In this document: piece by piece, positions 1 to 54,357 of the stretch
How positions within the stretch are numbered: the stretch's first letter is position 1
Layout: every line of letters begins with the position of its first letter
DNA from: a virus
Strand: one strand, 5' to 3'
Length of the DNA: 64,000 nucleotides
Virus record (IMG/VR): IMGVR_UViG_3300024346_006511
Span: 1 to 64,000 of that record
Made by a program: the position numbers and the translations under genes
Notes under the pieces: generated by a model
Seen by the model: the letters and a program-made list of their open reading frames with translations, nothing else
Database searches by the model: none
Told to the model about the DNA's origin: nothing

Positions 1-313
1 CATCGCCATACATAAAGTAAGCATCAGCTTGGTCTAACCATCTTAATGCCGTTTCTTTATCGCCAGCACCTACTGATACCACATCCTCTATAGCTTTATT
101 AACATACTCCTTCTCTTCCTCTACCTGCTTAGAGTTAATCTCCATTAGATCAGTAACGAATTGAGCTAAATCTAGGTAAGACCAGTTTTGAAAGTTATAC
201 CCTCTAGGTCTAAAACCATGAACATCTTTGAATAGATCCGAAACCCACATAAGGGTATCTTCGAATTCTTCGTTAGTGTTAATTGTGTGAATGTTTGAAT
301 TTGAATTTGCCAT
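1..313 (-). CDS. Unknown phage protein, C-terminus beyond the window
   Basis: The reading frame starts at the ATG at 313 and stays open to base 1, giving the first 104 residues of a longer protein. The start is supported by an AAAGGTTATG context and by a promoter 24 bp upstream. The visible part is acidic and probably helical, with the stretches EEFEDTLMWVSDLF and ETALRWLDQADAYF. I do not recognise a family. It heads its own transcription unit, so it is probably expressed independently of the gene before it. Confidence 0.75.
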   Translation of the reverse strand, partial: MANSNSNIHTINTNEEFEDTLMWVSDLFKDVHGFRPRGYNFQNWSYLDLAQFVTDLMEINSKQVEEEKEYVNKAIEDVVSVGAGDKETALRWLDQADAYFMYGD

Positions 314-336
314 AACCTTTATTTTTTTATCTTATA

Positions 337-369
337 CTTAAAGATACGAATAAATAAGTTCCTAGGCAA
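337..369 (-). promoter_or_regulatory. Promoter, CCTAGG subclass, for the gene at 1-313
   Basis: On the minus strand a TTG at 369-367 is separated by exactly 20 bp from TATCTTTAAG at 346-337. The sequence after TTG is CCTAGGAACTTA, shared with the promoters at 6847, 11549 and 16293. The TTG directly abuts the TAG stop codon of the preceding gene. The -7 element fits the Bacteroidota TAnnTTT pattern. Confidence 0.75.
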
Positions 370-807
370 CTATCTTAGTAACTCTTTTTCAATTATTTCA
401 TGAGAAAGTAAGTCTATATAAGTTTTTATTATAGCACACTTTTCATACATCTCCTTAGATTCGAAAAAGTATATAAGATCATTTAGTACGGTCATAACAG
501 TTTTGCTATCATAGGAATCTCCTATAGTATAAACAGTTTCAAATTTAGTAGCATCTATTCTATCTAGATACCCTACTAACTTAGACATATACTTAACTCT
601 GATAACGTCTCTTACTCTTTCATATTGTTCCTTATAAGACCTTTTGTACATTATGTCCATTAGATGCCAATTCTCCATTCCTCTTATTACCATTCCCATA
701 AGTACATACGGATTATTCATAACTCCCGTTATCTTATGTTCTTGGTAGATCTCTTCATCTCCTTGCTCGAAGATAGAGAATAAAGTTTCCTTATCTAGTG
801 GTTGCAT
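370..807 (-). CDS. Unknown helical phage protein
   Basis: A 145-residue, charged, largely helical protein with no signal peptide or membrane segment. The C-terminal part (residues ~115-135, YEKCAIIKTYIDLL) resembles the short UVR helical-hairpin motif seen in UvrB/UvrC-type and clamp-interacting proteins, but that is too short to assign a function. Its TAG stop abuts the -33 box of the next promoter. It starts about 95 bp from the divergent plus-strand block; no convincing promoter of the common type is seen in front of it, only a TATTTATA stretch. Confidence 0.7.
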   Translation of the reverse strand: MQPLDKETLFSIFEQGDEEIYQEHKITGVMNNPYVLMGMVIRGMENWHLMDIMYKRSYKEQYERVRDVIRVKYMSKLVGYLDRIDATKFETVYTIGDSYDSKTVMTVLNDLIYFFESKEMYEKCAIIKTYIDLLSHEIIEKELLR

Positions 808-867
808 ATGTTTATAAATACAAGTTATAACCCGTAGAAAAATAAATAATAAATTTATGGTTTAAAG

Positions 868-897
868 TTGTTTCTTAATACTAAAGTTCTTATATTG
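868..897 (+). promoter_or_regulatory. Plus-strand promoter, TATATTG type
   Basis: TTG at 868-870, a 20 bp spacer, and TATATTG at 891-897. It is the only clear plus-strand member of the promoter family and sits in front of the only plus-strand gene block. The start codon at 902 is 5 bp after the -7 box, which would give a leaderless or nearly leaderless mRNA. Confidence 0.65.
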
Positions 898-901
898 ATA
901 T

Positions 902-1078
902 ATGAGTAGGTTAGAAGATCTTTTATTTGAAGCAGAAAAGTTGGGAGTTCGTAGGGAAGTTCTCGATAAAGTTGGTGAAATAAGGAGAATCAAACCGAAA
1001 ATGAAGATAAACGACGTATATGATAGGGCTTATGCGGAAGTAATGCTTGAAAAACAAAAAAACAGTGAAAAAATTTAA
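902..1078 (+). CDS. Small unknown protein, first gene of plus-strand block
   Basis: A 58-residue charged protein starting at the ATG at 902 directly after a promoter -7 box. It reads as two or three helices (SRLEDLLFEAEKLG, REVLDKVGEIRRI, MKINDVYDRAYAEVML). No family recognised. Its end overlaps the start of the next small gene by 14 bp, as expected for a compact operon. Confidence 0.6.
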   Translation: MSRLEDLLFEAEKLGVRREVLDKVGEIRRIKPKMKINDVYDRAYAEVMLEKQKNSEKI

Positions 1079-1160
1079 CTGGACAGCGTTGATCTCTTAT
1101 ATAGTGATAGGAATAGTCACTTATTATATCTGGTCTGCGATATTTAACTGGTTATTGTGA
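1065..1160 (+). CDS. Single-pass membrane mini-protein
   Basis: A 31-residue open frame starting with GTG: KKFNWTA, then a hydrophobic segment (LISYIVIGIVTYYIWSAIF), then a short tail. It overlaps the preceding gene by 14 bp and shares GTGA with the next gene start at 1157, an arrangement typical of real coupled genes. The function is unknown; the small size keeps confidence moderate. Confidence 0.45.
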   Translation: MKKFNWTALISYIVIGIVTYYIWSAIFNWLL

Positions 1161-1843
1161 ATTTAGAAACATGGCAAAGGTATTGTATAGGGCAAAACCT
1201 TATGGATTGTGAATTTACTGTGTTATACAAGCAATATAACGACGGATGTGGTGCATTATTTTGGGATGCCGTGTATAATCACGAAGATTTCCTTGATCAA
1301 CACCGAGATTGTCGGAGTATTTTAGAGATTTGTTCGGGACCGGGCTTTATAGGTTGGGGAATCGCGCATGCTCTAGGAATAAAAGAGATACATTTTGGAG
1401 ATATCCATGAACCGGTCAATATAGACTTAGCTAAGACTGCTAAATTTAATAATGTTGACTATAATTTCCATCTAAGTGATGGATTTAAGAGTTATAATGG
1501 TCCAAAAGTGGATTTAATAATGGTAAGTCCGCCGTTTTTTACTAAGATTGAAGAGTTTGAACAGTTTCAATTGAATGAAGCAACCTTACTCACACAAGAT
1601 CAAGTAGAAAACCATAAGAGAAGATGGCTAGATTTAGATATGAACTTACATAAAAACGTTCTTAATAACTTTAGTAAGTATCTAACCGAGAAAGGACGTA
1701 TAGTAGTATTAGCTGATAAAAAGCATATAGATAAAGATATGTTAGATGCTGAAGCTAAGAATTATTCCTATTATACACATAAGGAGTTCGATGTTAAAGA
1801 GAAACCACATTGGCAAAGCTATATCAGAACATACTATATATGA
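1157..1843 (+). CDS. SAM-dependent methyltransferase, SPPF type
   Basis: A 228-residue class I methyltransferase. Motif I is visible around residues 56-68 (LEICSGPGFIGWG), an acidic motif II follows (FGDIHEP), and the catalytic motif IV is VSPPFF near residue 121. The [NDS]PP[YF] motif is used by N6-adenine, N5-glutamine (PrmC) and RsmC-type enzymes to methylate a planar nitrogen; PrmC- or RsmC-like is the nearest resemblance. The start is GTG, overlapping the stop of the previous gene. Candidate substrates are nucleic acid or protein; the sequence does not decide. Confidence 0.75.
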   Translation: MNLETWQRYCIGQNLMDCEFTVLYKQYNDGCGALFWDAVYNHEDFLDQHRDCRSILEICSGPGFIGWGIAHALGIKEIHFGDIHEPVNIDLAKTAKFNNVDYNFHLSDGFKSYNGPKVDLIMVSPPFFTKIEEFEQFQLNEATLLTQDQVENHKRRWLDLDMNLHKNVLNNFSKYLTEKGRIVVLADKKHIDKDMLDAEAKNYSYYTHKEFDVKEKPHWQSYIRTYYI

Positions 1844-1974
1844 AAGGTACAGAGATAATAGAGAGGTTAAAAGAGATAAGAGAAGAGACATCTAATGTAA
1901 ACTTACCTAATGCTATACAAAAGATAGATTACCTGATAGATGATATATACATGTACAAGCAACATTCATTATAA
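1840..1974 (+). CDS. Small helical protein
   Basis: A 44-residue frame (start MKGTEIIERLKEI) whose ATG overlaps the methyltransferase stop by 4 bp and whose TAA shares a base with the next ATG at 1974. Both junctions indicate a real gene between the methyltransferase and oxygenase. It appears to be two amphipathic helices; no family recognised. Confidence 0.6.
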   Translation: MKGTEIIERLKEIREETSNVNLPNAIQKIDYLIDDIYMYKQHSL

Positions 1975-2441
1975 TGGAATATAAGGTATATAAGAATTTC
2001 GTACCAAATGATCTATGTGATGAGATTGTATCTAAATATAAGAACGAAGGATATGAAGATATTAGAGGGGAATGGGATACATATCCATATACCTTAAACA
2101 AAGGCCCCCTATATACGAAAATTTTGGAATTTTTTTCTCCCCTAGTTCCCTGGAAATTCAACGAAAGGTGGATGAATATAAATGAATACAATATTGGAGA
2201 AGGATTAGCCCACCATAGAGACGCTAAAGCTAGCAACTATACTATAATCTCAGCACTCAATGATGGTTATACAGGAGGAAGATTCGTTATAGAGAAGAAG
2301 ACATATATAGAGTTAGATAAAGGAGATACTATAGTGTTAAATGGCGGTAAGATATTACACGGTGTAGAGAAAGTCTCTAATGGCTCGCGAATAGCTTTAA
2401 ACCTATGGACAGTACCACAAGGTAATAACTCACTATTATAA
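1974..2441 (+). CDS. 2-oxoglutarate/Fe(II) oxygenase
   Basis: A 155-residue double-stranded beta-helix dioxygenase. The iron triad is HRD (HHRDAKAS, residues ~80-83) and the distal His in LNGGKILHGVEKV (~130), followed by the 2-oxoglutarate-binding Arg in SRIALNLW. Members hydroxylate proteins, nucleic acids or small molecules, and tailed marine phages often carry several; this is one of three in the window. It is the last gene of the plus-strand block, behind a methyltransferase, which may suggest a shared substrate. No terminator is visible after it. Confidence 0.85.
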   Translation: MEYKVYKNFVPNDLCDEIVSKYKNEGYEDIRGEWDTYPYTLNKGPLYTKILEFFSPLVPWKFNERWMNINEYNIGEGLAHHRDAKASNYTIISALNDGYTGGRFVIEKKTYIELDKGDTIVLNGGKILHGVEKVSNGSRIALNLWTVPQGNNSLL

Positions 2442-2579
2442 CAATATATAAATATATATTACCTATACCCATAAAAATCATAAGAAATATGCAACTTAGT
2501 ATGGCGCAGCCATGCCTATAGCGTACCTATAAGGGAACTATACCGTCAGTGTTATGGCAAGGTTAGGGCACCATGCTAT
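2442..2579. other. Convergent intergenic region without a clear terminator
   Basis: About 140 bp between plus- and minus-strand transcription units that run towards each other. It contains a short perfect inverted repeat, ATGGC-GCA-GCCAT, near 2500, but no hairpin with a following T run on either strand. No convincing small gene is present. Confidence 0.5.
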
Positions 2580-2786
2580 CTATCTTCCGGAAGGTTTACC
2601 GTCCCAAGGTATAAACATAAGGAGAGTTAGGACCGAAGTCATAGCAAAGGCCTCTAGTGGGTAGTTGAGCATTAGACCTAAGCCTCTTACTCCTATCCAG
2701 ATAATGCCATGTATGGCTAGTACGCCTAGGCTAAGTACCAATAGGGTCAGTACTGTAGTGCCGGTATATCTAATTAACTTGTCCAT
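2580..2786 (-). CDS. Two-helix membrane protein
   Basis: A 68-residue protein with two hydrophobic helices (residues ~10-32 and ~45-60) and a short polar C-terminus (PWDGKPSGR). It has a promoter of the TATATTG type about 20 bp upstream of the start. Small phage inner-membrane proteins of this shape can be holins, superinfection-exclusion proteins or regulators; nothing distinguishes these here. Confidence 0.65.
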   Translation of the reverse strand: MDKLIRYTGTTVLTLLVLSLGVLAIHGIIWIGVRGLGLMLNYPLEAFAMTSVLTLLMFIPWDGKPSGR

Positions 2787-2804
2787 ATCTATCTCTCTTT
2801 ATAT

Positions 2805-2837
2805 ATACAATATACGAATAATACTTCAGGGTACCAA
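2805..2837 (-). promoter_or_regulatory. Promoter, TATATTG type, for the gene at 2580-2786
   Basis: TTG at 2837-2835, 20 bp, TATATTGTAT at 2814-2805 on the minus strand. The -33 box lies just inside the 3' end of the upstream gene (2839-3141). Confidence 0.7.
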
Positions 2838-2838
2838 C

Positions 2839-3141
2839 TTATTCATTAACTATCTCCATCTTATATAATGGGAAGGTATAGGTAGTCTTCTGAGACATCA
2901 TGTCAAAGGTATAAGTCTTAACCGTAGTAGGGCCGATACTCTCTACATTCATACCACTAAAGCTACTCCAGATGCTATAGGACATCTCTCCTTCTTTACT
3001 GGCATAGGCATGTATTGTATATACATTAGCCTTACCCTGGTATCCTATACCGTAGGTAACCTTCATTCTCTCTTCATCCTTCATGGATGATATAGCCTTC
3101 AATACCTTCTTACTTGCTGATCTCTTCTCTGAATATGTCAT
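2839..3141 (-). CDS. Unknown 100-residue protein
   Basis: A soluble 100-residue protein. The first 30 residues are basic and helical (YSEKRSASKKVLKAISSM); the rest reads as beta strands (KVTYGIGYQGKANVYTIHAYA, written here in part). The start is fixed by the AAAAAGGTTATG context and a strong promoter. No family recognised. Confidence 0.65.
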   Translation of the reverse strand: MTYSEKRSASKKVLKAISSMKDEERMKVTYGIGYQGKANVYTIHAYASKEGEMSYSIWSSFSGMNVESIGPTTVKTYTFDMMSQKTTYTFPLYKMEIVNE

Positions 3142-3158
3142 AACCTTTTTATCTTATA

Positions 3159-3191
3159 CCTTAAGATACGAAATTATATGGTAGGATCCAA
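3159..3191 (-). promoter_or_regulatory. Promoter for the gene at 2839-3141
   Basis: TTG at 3191-3189, 20 bp, TATCTTAAGG at 3168-3159, followed 18 bp later by the start codon in AAAAAGGTTATG. The spacer is unrelated to the CCTAGG and CCCTG subclasses. Confidence 0.7.
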
Positions 3192-3196
3192 CTAAT

Positions 3197-3527
3197 CACC
3201 CAACTATCTCTTCATAAGTACAATATGGCAGAAAGGCAACTAATCTCCATATTATTTGTCTATATAGAGAAAAAAAGAATAGAGGGAGGTACGAGCCTGA
3301 TGTATCATATCTAATTTCCATACACCACCTATGTTTCTTTCTATACAACCTATATGTTTATATACCTATATCTCTATATGAATATATACACTAGCTATTA
3401 TTAATAGGCTTCATTGGATAATAGGTCATTCTACGTAGGATCTACATATCATAGCCTTAGTCTCTCCTTATATCTCTTGATTAGAATATCTATGTATAGC
3501 CTCAGCCGTACACTACCTTAGACACTA
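3197..3527. other. Region of 0.33 kb without a convincing gene
   Basis: AT-rich and full of short CTATA / TATAT stretches on both strands. The longest minus-strand frame with an ATG (3196-3321, 41 residues) has no start context and is not called. A GTTGCC at about 3238 resembles a -33 box but lacks a good -7 box 20 bp away. I see no terminator or tRNA. Confidence 0.5.
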
Positions 3528-3797
3528 TTACTCCATATATGACGAGACACTTCTAAGACCGGAATAACTACAACGGTTGGTAGTTTGGATGGTGGTATCA
3601 TTTGAGACATTCGTCGAAAATGCGCGTGGCGACCTTCGGTCGAGAGAGAGACGACCCCCCTCACTCTCCCTCAAGCGTTCCATATCAAAGCCCCACCCCT
3701 CTAAATCCTCTACTATAGACGCTTCAATGTCTTTTTGTATTCTACAATCTTCTATATGTTCTTCTTCGAACTCATACATTATTCCACTTGTACACAT
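3528..3797 (-). CDS. Doubtful small acidic protein carrying the repeat hairpin
   Basis: An 89-residue frame. Residues 1-47 look like an ordinary acidic phage protein (YEFEEEHIEDCRIQKDIEAS). From residue ~48 the frame runs through the GC-rich hairpin element at 3621-3661 and becomes Ser/Arg-rich and low in complexity. The other copy of that element (54151-54188) lies just after a stop codon, so the real gene may once have ended near residue 48. Start choice: ATG at 3797. Function unknown. Confidence 0.4.
   Translation of the reverse strand: MCTSGIMYEFEEEHIEDCRIQKDIEASIVEDLEGWGFDMERLRESEGGRLSLDRRSPRAFSTNVSNDTTIQTTNRCSYSGLRSVSSYME
3621..3661 (-). repeat. GC-rich hairpin repeat, copy A
   Basis: On the minus strand: G-rich start, TCTCTCTCTC, then CGACC-GAA-GGTCG (5 bp stem), then CCACGCGC. 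It matches copy B at 54151-54188 over about 40 bp. Copy B has a stem shorter by one C-G pair, so the pairing is kept although the sequence differs. The surroundings are AT-rich, which makes the element stand out. Confidence 0.7.
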
Positions 3798-3809
3798 AAC
3801 TTATTTATT

Positions 3810-3950
3810 TTAATTTAGTATTATTTTATTAGTCTCTATTGATGTTCTTCTTATATAGTCCTCTACAAAGCCTTCTTCTACCTTATATGGTCTCCATAGT
3901 CCTATTGTTAAAGGCTTATACTCATATTCTTTAAACTTTGTAAACTCCAT
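3810..3950 (-). CDS. Small unknown protein (46 aa)
   Basis: Open frame from the ATG at 3950 to TAA at 3810, sequence beginning MEFTKFKEYEYKPL and ending ETNKIILN. Codon use resembles its neighbours and it fills the space between two genes on the same strand. No motif recognised. Confidence 0.55.
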   Translation of the reverse strand: MEFTKFKEYEYKPLTIGLWRPYKVEEGFVEDYIRRTSIETNKIILN

Positions 3951-3959
3951 ATTAATCCT

Positions 3960-4148
3960 CTACTTGATTAACTTGATTAAATCTTTAAACACATACTCTT
4001 CCTTTATTTCATCATATGCGAATACATTTGCTTTAAAGTCCTCATACGATAGTCCTCCATAGTCCTTCTGGAATACCTCCCATGCTTTACTATAGTCTAA
4101 CTCCTTAGGCTCATCCATCCAATCCCATTCTCTTCCGCTATTGATCAT
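3960..4148 (-). CDS. Small acidic unknown protein
   Basis: A 62-residue protein rich in Asp, Glu and aromatic residues (GREWDWMDEPKELDYSKAW, YEDFKANVFAYDEI). Its ATG overlaps the stop of the preceding gene by 4 bp. It has no membrane segment or metal-binding motif. Function unknown. Confidence 0.65.
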   Translation of the reverse strand: MINSGREWDWMDEPKELDYSKAWEVFQKDYGGLSYEDFKANVFAYDEIKEEYVFKDLIKLIK

Positions 4149-4348
4149 ATCTTATGCTTCCTCTTATACTTCTCTTCAAAGTCACTACCCTGTCCTATAT
4201 CTACTATCACAGCATTCTCTGGTAGTACTTTACTCTTAGGAGCTATTATCTGATCTACGACCTTAATGTTCTTAAATACCTTTATGTACTTCTTTATACC
4301 TGCTCCTTTAGTATACACTACTGCTATAGGAATTATATTCTGGCTCAT
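4145..4348 (-). CDS. Small beta-rich unknown protein
   Basis: A 67-residue protein with alternating hydrophobic strands (IIPIAVVYTKG, KVVDQIIAP, NAVIVDIGQGSDF) and a basic end (KYKRKHKI). It overlaps the 3' end of the gene before it by 41 bp in a different frame, long for this genome, so the true start could be slightly downstream. No family recognised. Confidence 0.6.
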   Translation of the reverse strand: MSQNIIPIAVVYTKGAGIKKYIKVFKNIKVVDQIIAPKSKVLPENAVIVDIGQGSDFEEKYKRKHKI

Positions 4349-4859
4349 TTCTATAATGTTTATATGATTTATATTGATCGTAGTCTTCTTGATTGACCTT
4401 ATACCCCCAATGCAATAATGATTGTTGAATGCGCGGGCTTGCTTCCCAACTGCCTGTCTCTTCTATTCTAGTATAGATTCTATTACGCCATCTACCTTTC
4501 TCTCCACAGAAGTCCTGCCAGCGTCTTATCTGTCTGTTATCATCCTCACCTCTTATACCCATACTGAACTTACAATACCATTCAAACCATCCATAAGGAT
4601 CTCTCTCATGCATCCATTTCATACGCTTCCAGTACTCATAATCCATTCCAGATCTAATCTTAAACTTATTAAGCCTAGGTTTATATGTCTCTCCTAAGTA
4701 TAAGCTTGTATCTAAGCCATCGAAATGATGATCGAATAACTCTTGATACTCGAAGTTAGTATACTCTTCTATCGGTAGGCCGAAGTAACAGCCTCCAAAT
4801 GCTCCTGCTTCTACTATCTCTCTAGGAGTCAGTATAGGGTAAAATGCTAATGAACTCAT
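4308..4859 (-). CDS. Conserved protein with a DPxGWFxWYC domain
   Basis: A 183-residue soluble protein. The central segment has DPYGWFEWYCKFSMG (residues ~85-100), then an arginine/tryptophan-rich stretch (DDNRQIRRWQDFCGEKGRW) and LHWGYKVN near residue 152. From memory, a similar Trp/Cys-rich pattern occurs in uncharacterised proteins of bacteria, algae, fungi and large viruses, without known activity. The start at 4859 overlaps the stop of the SGNH gene by 4 bp. Function unknown. Confidence 0.65.
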   Translation of the reverse strand: MSSLAFYPILTPREIVEAGAFGGCYFGLPIEEYTNFEYQELFDHHFDGLDTSLYLGETYKPRLNKFKIRSGMDYEYWKRMKWMHERDPYGWFEWYCKFSMGIRGEDDNRQIRRWQDFCGEKGRWRNRIYTRIEETGSWEASPRIQQSLLHWGYKVNQEDYDQYKSYKHYRNEPEYNSYSSSVY

Positions 4860-41442: not shown

Positions 41443-42966
41443 TTAGAATTGGAATCGTGATCCAACAGTTATAGCATAAGATAGCGGAATACCTGGTCTA
41501 GTGTTACCAATTACTGTTCCTCCTATGTTTGCATTAAATCTCTGAGATAGTTTGAAGTCAAAATTACTACCTATAATATATGTACCGTATTCGGTCCAAG
41601 TTACTGATTTAGCTTTAACAGAATAAGTCATTGGAGAATGAGAATAAGCTAACATAGGTGAGATTACTACTCTATTCTTTACATTGAATGGCTTAGTAGC
41701 AAATCCAGTAAGAGACATAGTAGCTATTTTTTCTCCTCCATCTAAAAATACTCCCATGCTAGTAAGAGCAAATCCTCCTACGAATCCTTTCCAACGGTTT
41801 TCTTTTTGTCCTAAATAGACATTACTTATACCTGCTGTAACGACATGAGTAGAGTACATTTTCATATATCCAGCTGAAATCGATTGGACCATCATTATAG
41901 ATCCTTTATCCATGTAGCTTCCTAGTTTGTCTTGACCTCCTGTAAAAGGATTATTTATCATAACATCTACTTCTTTATCATAATTGAAGTATACGGTGCT
42001 CTGTGATAAGTTTAAACTAAATTGTTTAAGGTTAGACCATACCATTGCGTTAGCTGAGTATGTTTCTACTCCAGTTAAAGAAGATTGTGAGTATCCAAAT
42101 GAAGCTGCTTGTTGTAGCACACCATCCATCATTTGCATAGTAACTAAATTAGCAGTAACGATTGGCGGAGCTAGAGTCTGTTCTTCTTCCTTCTCTTCTT
42201 CTTCCTCTTTTTCTTTTTTCTTTTCTTCTTCTACTTCTTCTTCTTCTTTATCTTTCTCTTCAGATTTTTCATCAGACTTTTCATCCTTGCTTTCTTCATT
42301 TTTTGAATCGTCTTTATTTTCTTCGCTTTCACCACCCGTATCACTTCCTTCTTCTCCTGACGAATCACCATCGCTGCTATCTCCATTCCCAGAAGAGCTA
42401 TCCGAATCTGATGAACCACTGTCATCACCCGAGCTACTAGACCCACCTGAATCGTCACTCCCTCCTGAGCCGCTATTGCCTGAAGAGTCTCCTCCTCCAG
42501 AGTTATTTCCGCTGGAATTGCTTCCACTACTTCCTGAATTGCTTGATCCAGAAGAACTTCCTGTTCCTCCAGTTGATCCTGTATTTCCTGTGCTTCCATT
42601 TCCTGTGTTAGTATTATTAGTTGCTCCAGATGTGGCATTGTTAGCTGCATTTGTAGCATTACTGGTTGCCTGATTTGTTGTTTGTTGAGTTGTTTGAGAA
42701 TTAGCATTTCCAGAGGAACATGGTGACAATGCTTGATACCATGAATATGTTTCTTCTAGCCATGCTTGTAAAGTACCGTTAGTAAATTCAGTAGAAGTAA
42801 ATACTCTAGATTTATTATAATAAGCTACTACTGTTTGTCCTCCTATTTGAACAGAAAACACTTTTACCTCTCCGGTACATCTATCAGTATAGGTTTGAAC
42901 GAGGGCCTGACTATGACCCTCGAACATTCCCATCGCAGCAATTACTATGAATAGTAACCTTCTCAT
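41443..42966 (-). CDS. Outer-membrane beta-barrel protein with long low-complexity arm
   Basis: A 507-residue exported protein. Signal peptide to about residue 19 (FIVIAAMGMFEGHSQA); a globular part with two Cys (TDRCTGEV, SPCSSGN, ~30 and ~80); a low-complexity arm of Gly/Ser/Asn then Asp/Glu/Lys (residues ~85-265); and a ~230-residue strand-rich C-terminal region ending GSRFQF, the aromatic-ended beta-signal for outer-membrane insertion. A surface receptor-blocking or adhesion role is possible. Codon periodicity and the antisense frames here come from the repetitive arm. Confidence 0.75.
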   Translation of the reverse strand: MRRLLFIVIAAMGMFEGHSQALVQTYTDRCTGEVKVFSVQIGGQTVVAYYNKSRVFTSTEFTNGTLQAWLEETYSWYQALSPCSSGNANSQTTQQTTNQATSNATNAANNATSGATNNTNTGNGSTGNTGSTGGTGSSSGSSNSGSSGSNSSGNNSGGGDSSGNSGSGGSDDSGGSSSSGDDSGSSDSDSSSGNGDSSDGDSSGEEGSDTGGESEENKDDSKNEESKDEKSDEKSEEKDKEEEEVEEEKKKEKEEEEEKEEEQTLAPPIVTANLVTMQMMDGVLQQAASFGYSQSSLTGVETYSANAMVWSNLKQFSLNLSQSTVYFNYDKEVDVMINNPFTGGQDKLGSYMDKGSIMMVQSISAGYMKMYSTHVVTAGISNVYLGQKENRWKGFVGGFALTSMGVFLDGGEKIATMSLTGFATKPFNVKNRVVISPMLAYSHSPMTYSVKAKSVTWTEYGTYIIGSNFDFKLSQRFNANIGGTVIGNTRPGIPLSYAITVGSRFQF

Positions 42967-54110: not shown

Positions 54111-54139
54111 CAAAAAAAACCCCTCCGTTTCCGGAAGGG
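54111..54139 (-). terminator. Rho-independent terminator after the histone-like gene
   Basis: On the minus strand CCCTTCC-GGAAAC-GGAGGGG (54139-54120; one U-G pair) followed by eight Ts. The matching plus-strand hairpin has a C-A mismatch, so it is built for the minus strand. Confidence 0.9.
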
Positions 54140-54150
54140 CTTGTCAAATT

Positions 54151-54188
54151 CGCGCGTGGCGACTTCGTCGGAGAGAGAAACGCCCCCT
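54151..54188 (-). repeat. GC-rich hairpin repeat, copy B
   Basis: On the minus strand it follows the stop codon of the histone-like gene: GGGGG, TCTCTCTC, CGAC-GAA-GTCG hairpin, CCACGCGC, then the terminator. Matches copy A (3621-3661) with one base pair fewer in the stem. Confidence 0.7.
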
Positions 54189-54357
54189 ACCCCTTCGTTG
54201 CCTCCATATTCGCTTTCTTGTAAGGTGTAATTAATTTTTTAATCTCACCTGCTGCTTTACGAGCTCTTGCTTGTGAAGTCTTTGTACTTCCGCTATTATT
54301 TTCAGCTAGTACATTAAATTGCTCTGCAATTTGTTCGAATAATTCTTCTTTGTTCAT
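54187..54357 (-). CDS. Histone H1-like basic protein (Hc1 type)
   Basis: A 56-residue protein missed by length filters. It starts at the ATG at 54357 and ends at TAG at 54187. NKEELFEQIAEQFNVL is followed by TSQARARKAAGEIKKLI, matching the RARKA-EIKKL core of Bacteroidota Hc1-type histone-like proteins, then PYKKANMEATKG. It would bind DNA, host or phage. The ATG overlaps the next upstream gene stop by 4 bp, and the GC-rich hairpin and a terminator follow. Confidence 0.7.
   Translation of the reverse strand: MNKEELFEQIAEQFNVLAENNSGSTKTSQARARKAAGEIKKLITPYKKANMEATKG

Follow-up and report, generated by a model that had tools for sequence, protein, structure and literature searches.

A recurrent hairpin element of Immutovirus-like phages, a candidate cis-acting RNA at cistron boundaries

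Two copies in one genome and a family of relatives

Two GC-rich hairpins with a compensated stem, lying 50 kb apart in an AT-rich phage genome, raise the question of what kind of element they are and whether it would act as RNA or as DNA. They had been pointed out in a first-pass annotation of the window, by which we mean the whole 64,000-nt stretch analysed here (positions 1 to 64,000 of IMG/VR record IMGVR_UViG_3300024346_006511, which is 156,126 bp long). Both copies were borne out on the minus strand, copy A at 3661-3621 (GGGGGGTCGTCTCTCTCTCGACCGAAGGTCGCCACGCGC) and copy B at 54188-54151 (AGGGGGCGTTTCTCTCTCCGACGAAGTCGCCACGCGC), as was the additional C-G pair that copy A carries on both sides of its stem (CGACC/GGTCG, vs CGAC/GTCG in copy B, with the GAA loop common to the two). 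Copy B had been placed after a stop codon and before a terminator, and it does start at the stop of an ORF (54357-54187) and precede an intrinsic terminator (54140-54112). Copy A is not intergenic: it lies in frame within an 89-aa ORF (3797-3528), which the annotation had missed. The features of the two loci are as follows.

3528-3797, minus strand: small ORF of 89 aa, in frame through copy A
3655-3674, minus strand: copy A purine arm (TTGAGGGAGAGTGAGGGGGG), the 5' arm of predicted helix P1, coding for LRESEG of this ORF
3643-3654, minus strand: copy A linker and pyrimidine tract (CU repeats), the central segment
3630-3642, minus strand: copy A helix P2, CGACC-GAA-GGTCG, a C(GNA)G triloop on 5 bp
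3622-3628, minus strand: copy A invariant CACGCGC
54187-54357, minus strand: H1-like ORF, a 56-aa basic protein
54178-54199, minus strand: copy B purine tract and linker, overlapping the UAG stop (54189-54187) of the H1-like ORF
54171-54177, minus strand: copy B pyrimidine tract
54160-54170, minus strand: copy B helix P2, CGAC-GAA-GTCG, 4 bp
54152-54158, minus strand: copy B invariant CACGCGC, then a purine and AATTT (54151-54146)
54112-54140, minus strand: intrinsic terminator (CCCUUCCGGAAACGGAGGGG-U8) directly 3' of copy B, in the same order in many relatives

Within the 156,126-bp record, the 12-mer GTCGCCACGCGC occurs twice with no further match at up to 2 mismatches, and CACGCGC is found in copies A and B only. 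Two such GC-rich islands in an AT-rich genome had been judged not to be expected by chance, and this was upheld: a covariance model built without any row with a 5-bp stem recovered copy A at E=1e-8, and dozens of other contigs carry the element. The same model gave copy B E=2e-12, but copy B is one of its training rows. Neither window copy had a better folding energy than shuffled sequences (z of -0.83 and -0.01), and this comparison had a mixed outcome in relatives.

The structured element with its compensated stem proved to be a family across IMG/VR contigs, with ~89 distinct versions after filtering, pooled from a shared-pattern scan, two relaxed scans and retrieval through the neighbouring H1-like protein. 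The shared-pattern scan returned 41 stretches, genuine by inspection except for three GC-rich ones (L007, L011, L039). Retrieval through the H1-like protein, which is independent of the motif (142 IMG/VR relatives, 80 kept, 79 with enough downstream sequence), led back to this element and added new stems (CAC/GTG, CACC/GGTG, GCACC/GGTGC, GTCGAC/GTCGAC); CACGCGC lay within 130 nt of the H1-like stop in 40/79 readable loci. When only the 5' half was used as a probe (GGGGCGTTTCTCTCTC), with no 3' constraint, a capped hairpin and CACGCGC followed downstream in 28/28 AT-rich matches, and all 6 misses came from contigs with a GC content of at least 0.60. Each record holds 1-3 copies, commonly in two groups 35-55 kb apart.

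The record encodes a T4-like terminase, portal and sheath, as well as PolA, a DnaB-like helicase, ribonucleotide reductase and GroEL. By terminase, its closest cultured relative is Flavobacterium phage vB_FspM_immuto_2-6A (74% identity), in which the covariance model located a strong copy (42447-42500, E 6e-14) immediately behind gp196, the H1-like gene, and a weak, degenerate one upstream of the TPRE-type gene gp154 (64756-64800, E 0.005), both unannotated in the stretches read. A BLASTN search of cultured phages with the window copies had given no match, which reflects a limit of sensitivity, since the covariance model did detect the element in this isolate. Three more distant phages gave background only with the model (best 14.6 bits). 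The carriers are Immutovirus-like myoviruses of flavobacteria, a lineage known here almost only from metagenomes. In the bacterial genomes of the species searched, the exact pattern matched 17 times, each time without tract and hairpin, and yielded no genuine copy. Neither window copy matches any family of Rfam release 15 at the gathering cut-off (sub-threshold matches up to an E of 5 were unrelated), and literature searches on the sequence itself, the immuto phages, put RNA, virion RNA polymerase promoters and GNA triloops turned up nothing on the element. It most likely represents a previously undescribed family of short cis-acting phage RNA elements, of a kind that is itself known.

Hairpin P2 and the predicted helix P1

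Read in the 5' to 3' direction of the coding strand, the element consists of a purine tract, a short linker (usually CGUUU or CGCUUU), a pyrimidine tract, hairpin P2, an invariant and unpaired CACGCGC, a purine and AWTTT. The triloop of P2 is GNA closed by C-G (76 GAA and 3 GCA among the clear cases), and its stem ranges from 3 to 6 bp across copies. Given 48 aligned sequences and no structure, RNAalifold returned exactly P2 (rows with the 5-bp CGACC stem, which misalign, were left out): 48/48 sequences pair, with 40 two-sided changes and 0 one-sided. The covariation score was 0.432, vs 0.114 in shuffled alignments (0/500 as good) and at most 0.147 in slid controls. Three copies (L063, L064, L144) have no hairpin and keep the flanks, including CACGCGC. 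P2 does not have the layout of an intrinsic terminator, being followed by CACGCGC-RAWTTT instead of a U tract, with the true terminator further downstream. The aligned copies contain no internal G-U pair in P2. This would be expected of an RNA under tight constraint, but equally of a DNA hairpin, so that the capped stem may instead form in single-stranded DNA.

A second helix, P1, is predicted between the purine and pyrimidine tracts. On average, duplexes of the purine tract are stronger with the pyrimidine tract of the same copy (mean -10.8 kcal/mol) than with swapped partners (-9.9; 0/5000 permutations as good), and extending P1 by the real 5' arm of P2 strengthens it more than extending it by the arms of other copies (-12.07 with the own arm vs -11.61 with swapped arms; 0/2000). 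As the pairing of P1 often reaches this arm, P1 and P2 would compete for the central segment, as two mutually exclusive helices. Both P1 and the competition are moderately supported, because the permutation tests ignore common descent. About 18% of the predicted P1 pairs are G-U, a content that fits RNA.

Other pairings were considered and rejected. By eye, most copies would allow a pseudoknot in which the P1 loop (GCGU/GCGC) pairs with CACGCGC, but the loops of L004, L043, L146, L175, L181 and L176 cannot pair. The purine arm as an antiterminator against the downstream terminator paired no better than swapped partners did (358/3000), and other downstream sequence gave no pairing signal with this arm.

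Position relative to genes

Action at 3' ends had been one of the possibilities proposed for the element. Many copies do follow a stop codon, so this part held, but the copies are not always behind stops: others stand 15-24 nt before a start codon, or are read in frame as part of a small ORF, near its 3' end. Automatic and overlapping classes assigned 33 of the 89 versions to a position after an H1-like gene, 24 to a covering ORF and 18 to a position with an ORF start 15-24 nt downstream; the spacing to the start was 15-20 nt in 16/18 of the latter. The terminator test of the classifier was too strict, and by eye a terminator frequently follows the H1-side copies. The element comes after the terminator in L050 and L134. 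Almost all larger genes of the window's genome lie on one strand, so the orientation of the element relative to genes is uninformative there.

One recurring site is behind the H1-like gene. Its 56-aa product is H1/Hc1-like by inspection only and matched no Pfam or PHROG entry. Readthrough or frameshifting across its stop was rejected, as the frames that continue behind the element vary from one relative to another and lead into the terminator. In L045 (3166-3230, after the H1-like stop), an apparent 3' half of a tRNA (GGTTAGGGGTTCGATTCCCC) replaces the element. The other recurring site is the end of an operon with a gene for a TPRE..GAFGG-type protein (window 4308-4859, minus strand; also L034, L209, L212 and L214). 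The element flanks this gene on both sides in several contigs (L209, L212, L214, L231). Several different small ORFs have a C-terminal tail, WC-Y-G-PSP-AY, in common, and in L034 one open frame spans both.

The covering ORFs of the copy A type are probably translated, because variation downstream of the element falls mostly on third codon positions (codon positions 1/2/3 vary in 7/6/12 of 18 columns among eight related sequences) and includes AGC/TCC serine swaps among the ORF tails.

Behind the copy-A-type element lies a conserved non-coding region of ~290-400 nt, closed by a U tract immediately ahead of the next promoter (window 3240-3530, minus strand; also downstream of the element in L001, L003, L005, L014, L027, L034, L129, L134 and L189, with a similar stretch in immuto_2-6A at L276:5560-5870, ~66.4-66.7 kb). 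It contains a variable small hairpin ahead of a CTGAG core and is a candidate large non-coding RNA; RNAalifold returned no convincing consensus fold for it. On both sides of the immuto_2-6A stretch (L276:5455-6040) there are many closely spaced ACCCGTT/ACCCGTC repeats. GC skew switches sign near 2-4 kb (window 1-4000), adjoining the conserved region, and a replication origin there is conceivable. A GTTGC-N17-20-TTCKTATATTTA-type motif (repeat families D1-D5), probably a Bacteroidota-type promoter, recurs upstream of genes at these sites.

311, 3140, 6796, 7997, 8528, 9827, 11491, 14303, 16242, 18128, 20646 and 61483, minus strand: GTTGC-N17-20 motif

Possible function and its alternatives

Our tentative reading is that the element is a cis-acting structured RNA of ~50 nt that may mark cistron boundaries in Immutovirus-like myoviruses. 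Its active form is probably RNA and not DNA, considering the compensatory evolution, the G-U-rich P1, the optional P2 and the tight placement at stop and start codons. More tentatively still, a host or phage ribonuclease or an RNA-binding protein might recognise the element and cut or hold the transcript at CACGCGC-RAWUUU, a processing or protein-binding role that we adopted because the cistron boundary is the commonest feature of the copies; a protein-binding site, among the proposals of the first-pass annotation, is possible. A cut would yield an upstream mRNA with a hairpin-protected 3' end and a downstream mRNA with a short leader. The purine arm and the end of the upstream ORF share sequence, so that P1 would be melted by a ribosome translating or terminating there, whereupon P2 would form and couple the event to translation. 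It counts against processing that cleavage at copy-A-type elements would cut coding sequence. We consider it decidedly unlikely that the element is a small, bistable and possibly catalytic phage RNA switch of a new class, in which the passage of the ribosome would pick the helix and hence the cut or hold at CACGCGC; such a switch would also work while being translated inside small ORFs.

Action at the DNA level, with the C(GNA)G minihairpin extruded from single-stranded DNA and bound by a protein of replication, recombination, packaging or transcription, is unlikely but deserves consideration: in DNA, C(GAA)G triloops have exceptional stability, P2 is free of internal G-U pairs, and most genomes have two sites at the long spacing given above. 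It accounts poorly for the G-U pairs of P1 and for a hairpin that is sometimes missing and varies in length without compensating spacing, and the tight stop- and start-codon placement fits mRNA better. Quite unlikely, too, is processive antitermination of the put or nut type, by which hairpins in the nascent RNA would modify RNA polymerase for readthrough of a terminator just downstream. The many H1-side copies directly ahead of an intrinsic terminator recall lambda nutR, which is located between cro and tR1, and the succession of pyrimidine tract and GNRA-like hairpin is reminiscent of boxA-boxB. The start-codon-side copies, however, have no terminator directly behind them, the order is reversed in L050 and L134, and purine arm and terminator pair at chance level, so antitermination would explain the H1 side and not the other copies.

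A late hairpin promoter like those of the N4 virion RNA polymerase, with the purine after CACGCGC as the start, is very improbable. Its appeal lies in the C(GNA)G hairpin and in an invariant sequence with a purine behind it and 15-24 nt of leader before the ATG, but the distance from loop to start is not fixed (CACGCGC-R is constant and the stem is not, being absent from some copies), terminators come directly behind the H1-side copies, and the large proteins covered by the scans are structural, metabolic or of no recognised function. PF00940 (single-subunit RNA polymerase) had no match in the record, yet the control set was likewise without a match. The suggestion of a mobile element remnant found no support, and we give hardly any credence to the idea that the element is left over from, or targeted by, a mobile element or gene cassette of the attC, REP or MITE type. 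In favour of it, the TPRE-type gene is flanked by direct copies in the four contigs named and different genes are joined to the element, but instead of the many dispersed copies per genome of a MITE or REP there are 1-3, at recurring, comparable positions and with compensatory change.

Parallels with known systems are partial. Attenuators also use mutually exclusive helices, as proposed here for P1 and P2. Lambda nut (boxA-boxB) and HK022 put are likewise short cis-acting phage RNAs with a pyrimidine tract and a small GNRA-like hairpin, and some copies of the element similarly have a stop codon on one side and an intrinsic terminator on the other; unlike these, many copies have no downstream terminator or lie behind one, and the element has the invariant CACGCGC 3' of the hairpin and a predicted competing purine-pyrimidine helix. 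Phage mRNA processing sites, such as the RNase E site upstream of T4 gene 32, combine an intercistronic stem-loop, a purine- or A-U-rich single strand and a short leader, whereas the element is far more conserved in primary sequence, is predicted to be bistable and is sometimes inside an ORF. With N4 promoters it shares the C(GNA)G triloop hairpin and a variable, covarying stem, but its hairpin is optional and the distance to the putative start varies. As a short covarying motif that was found by comparison and is tied to particular genes, it resembles published candidate structured RNAs and those in Rfam (Weinberg et al, 2010, PMC2864571), except that no Rfam family matches it.

Since the element is present in the isolate immuto_2-6A, whose host is Flavobacterium sp. 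LMO8, transcript mapping and mutation are feasible. To our knowledge, post-transcriptional control in phages of Bacteroidota is poorly explored, and a strongly covarying, sharply defined and so far unannotated element offers a concrete entry point to it.
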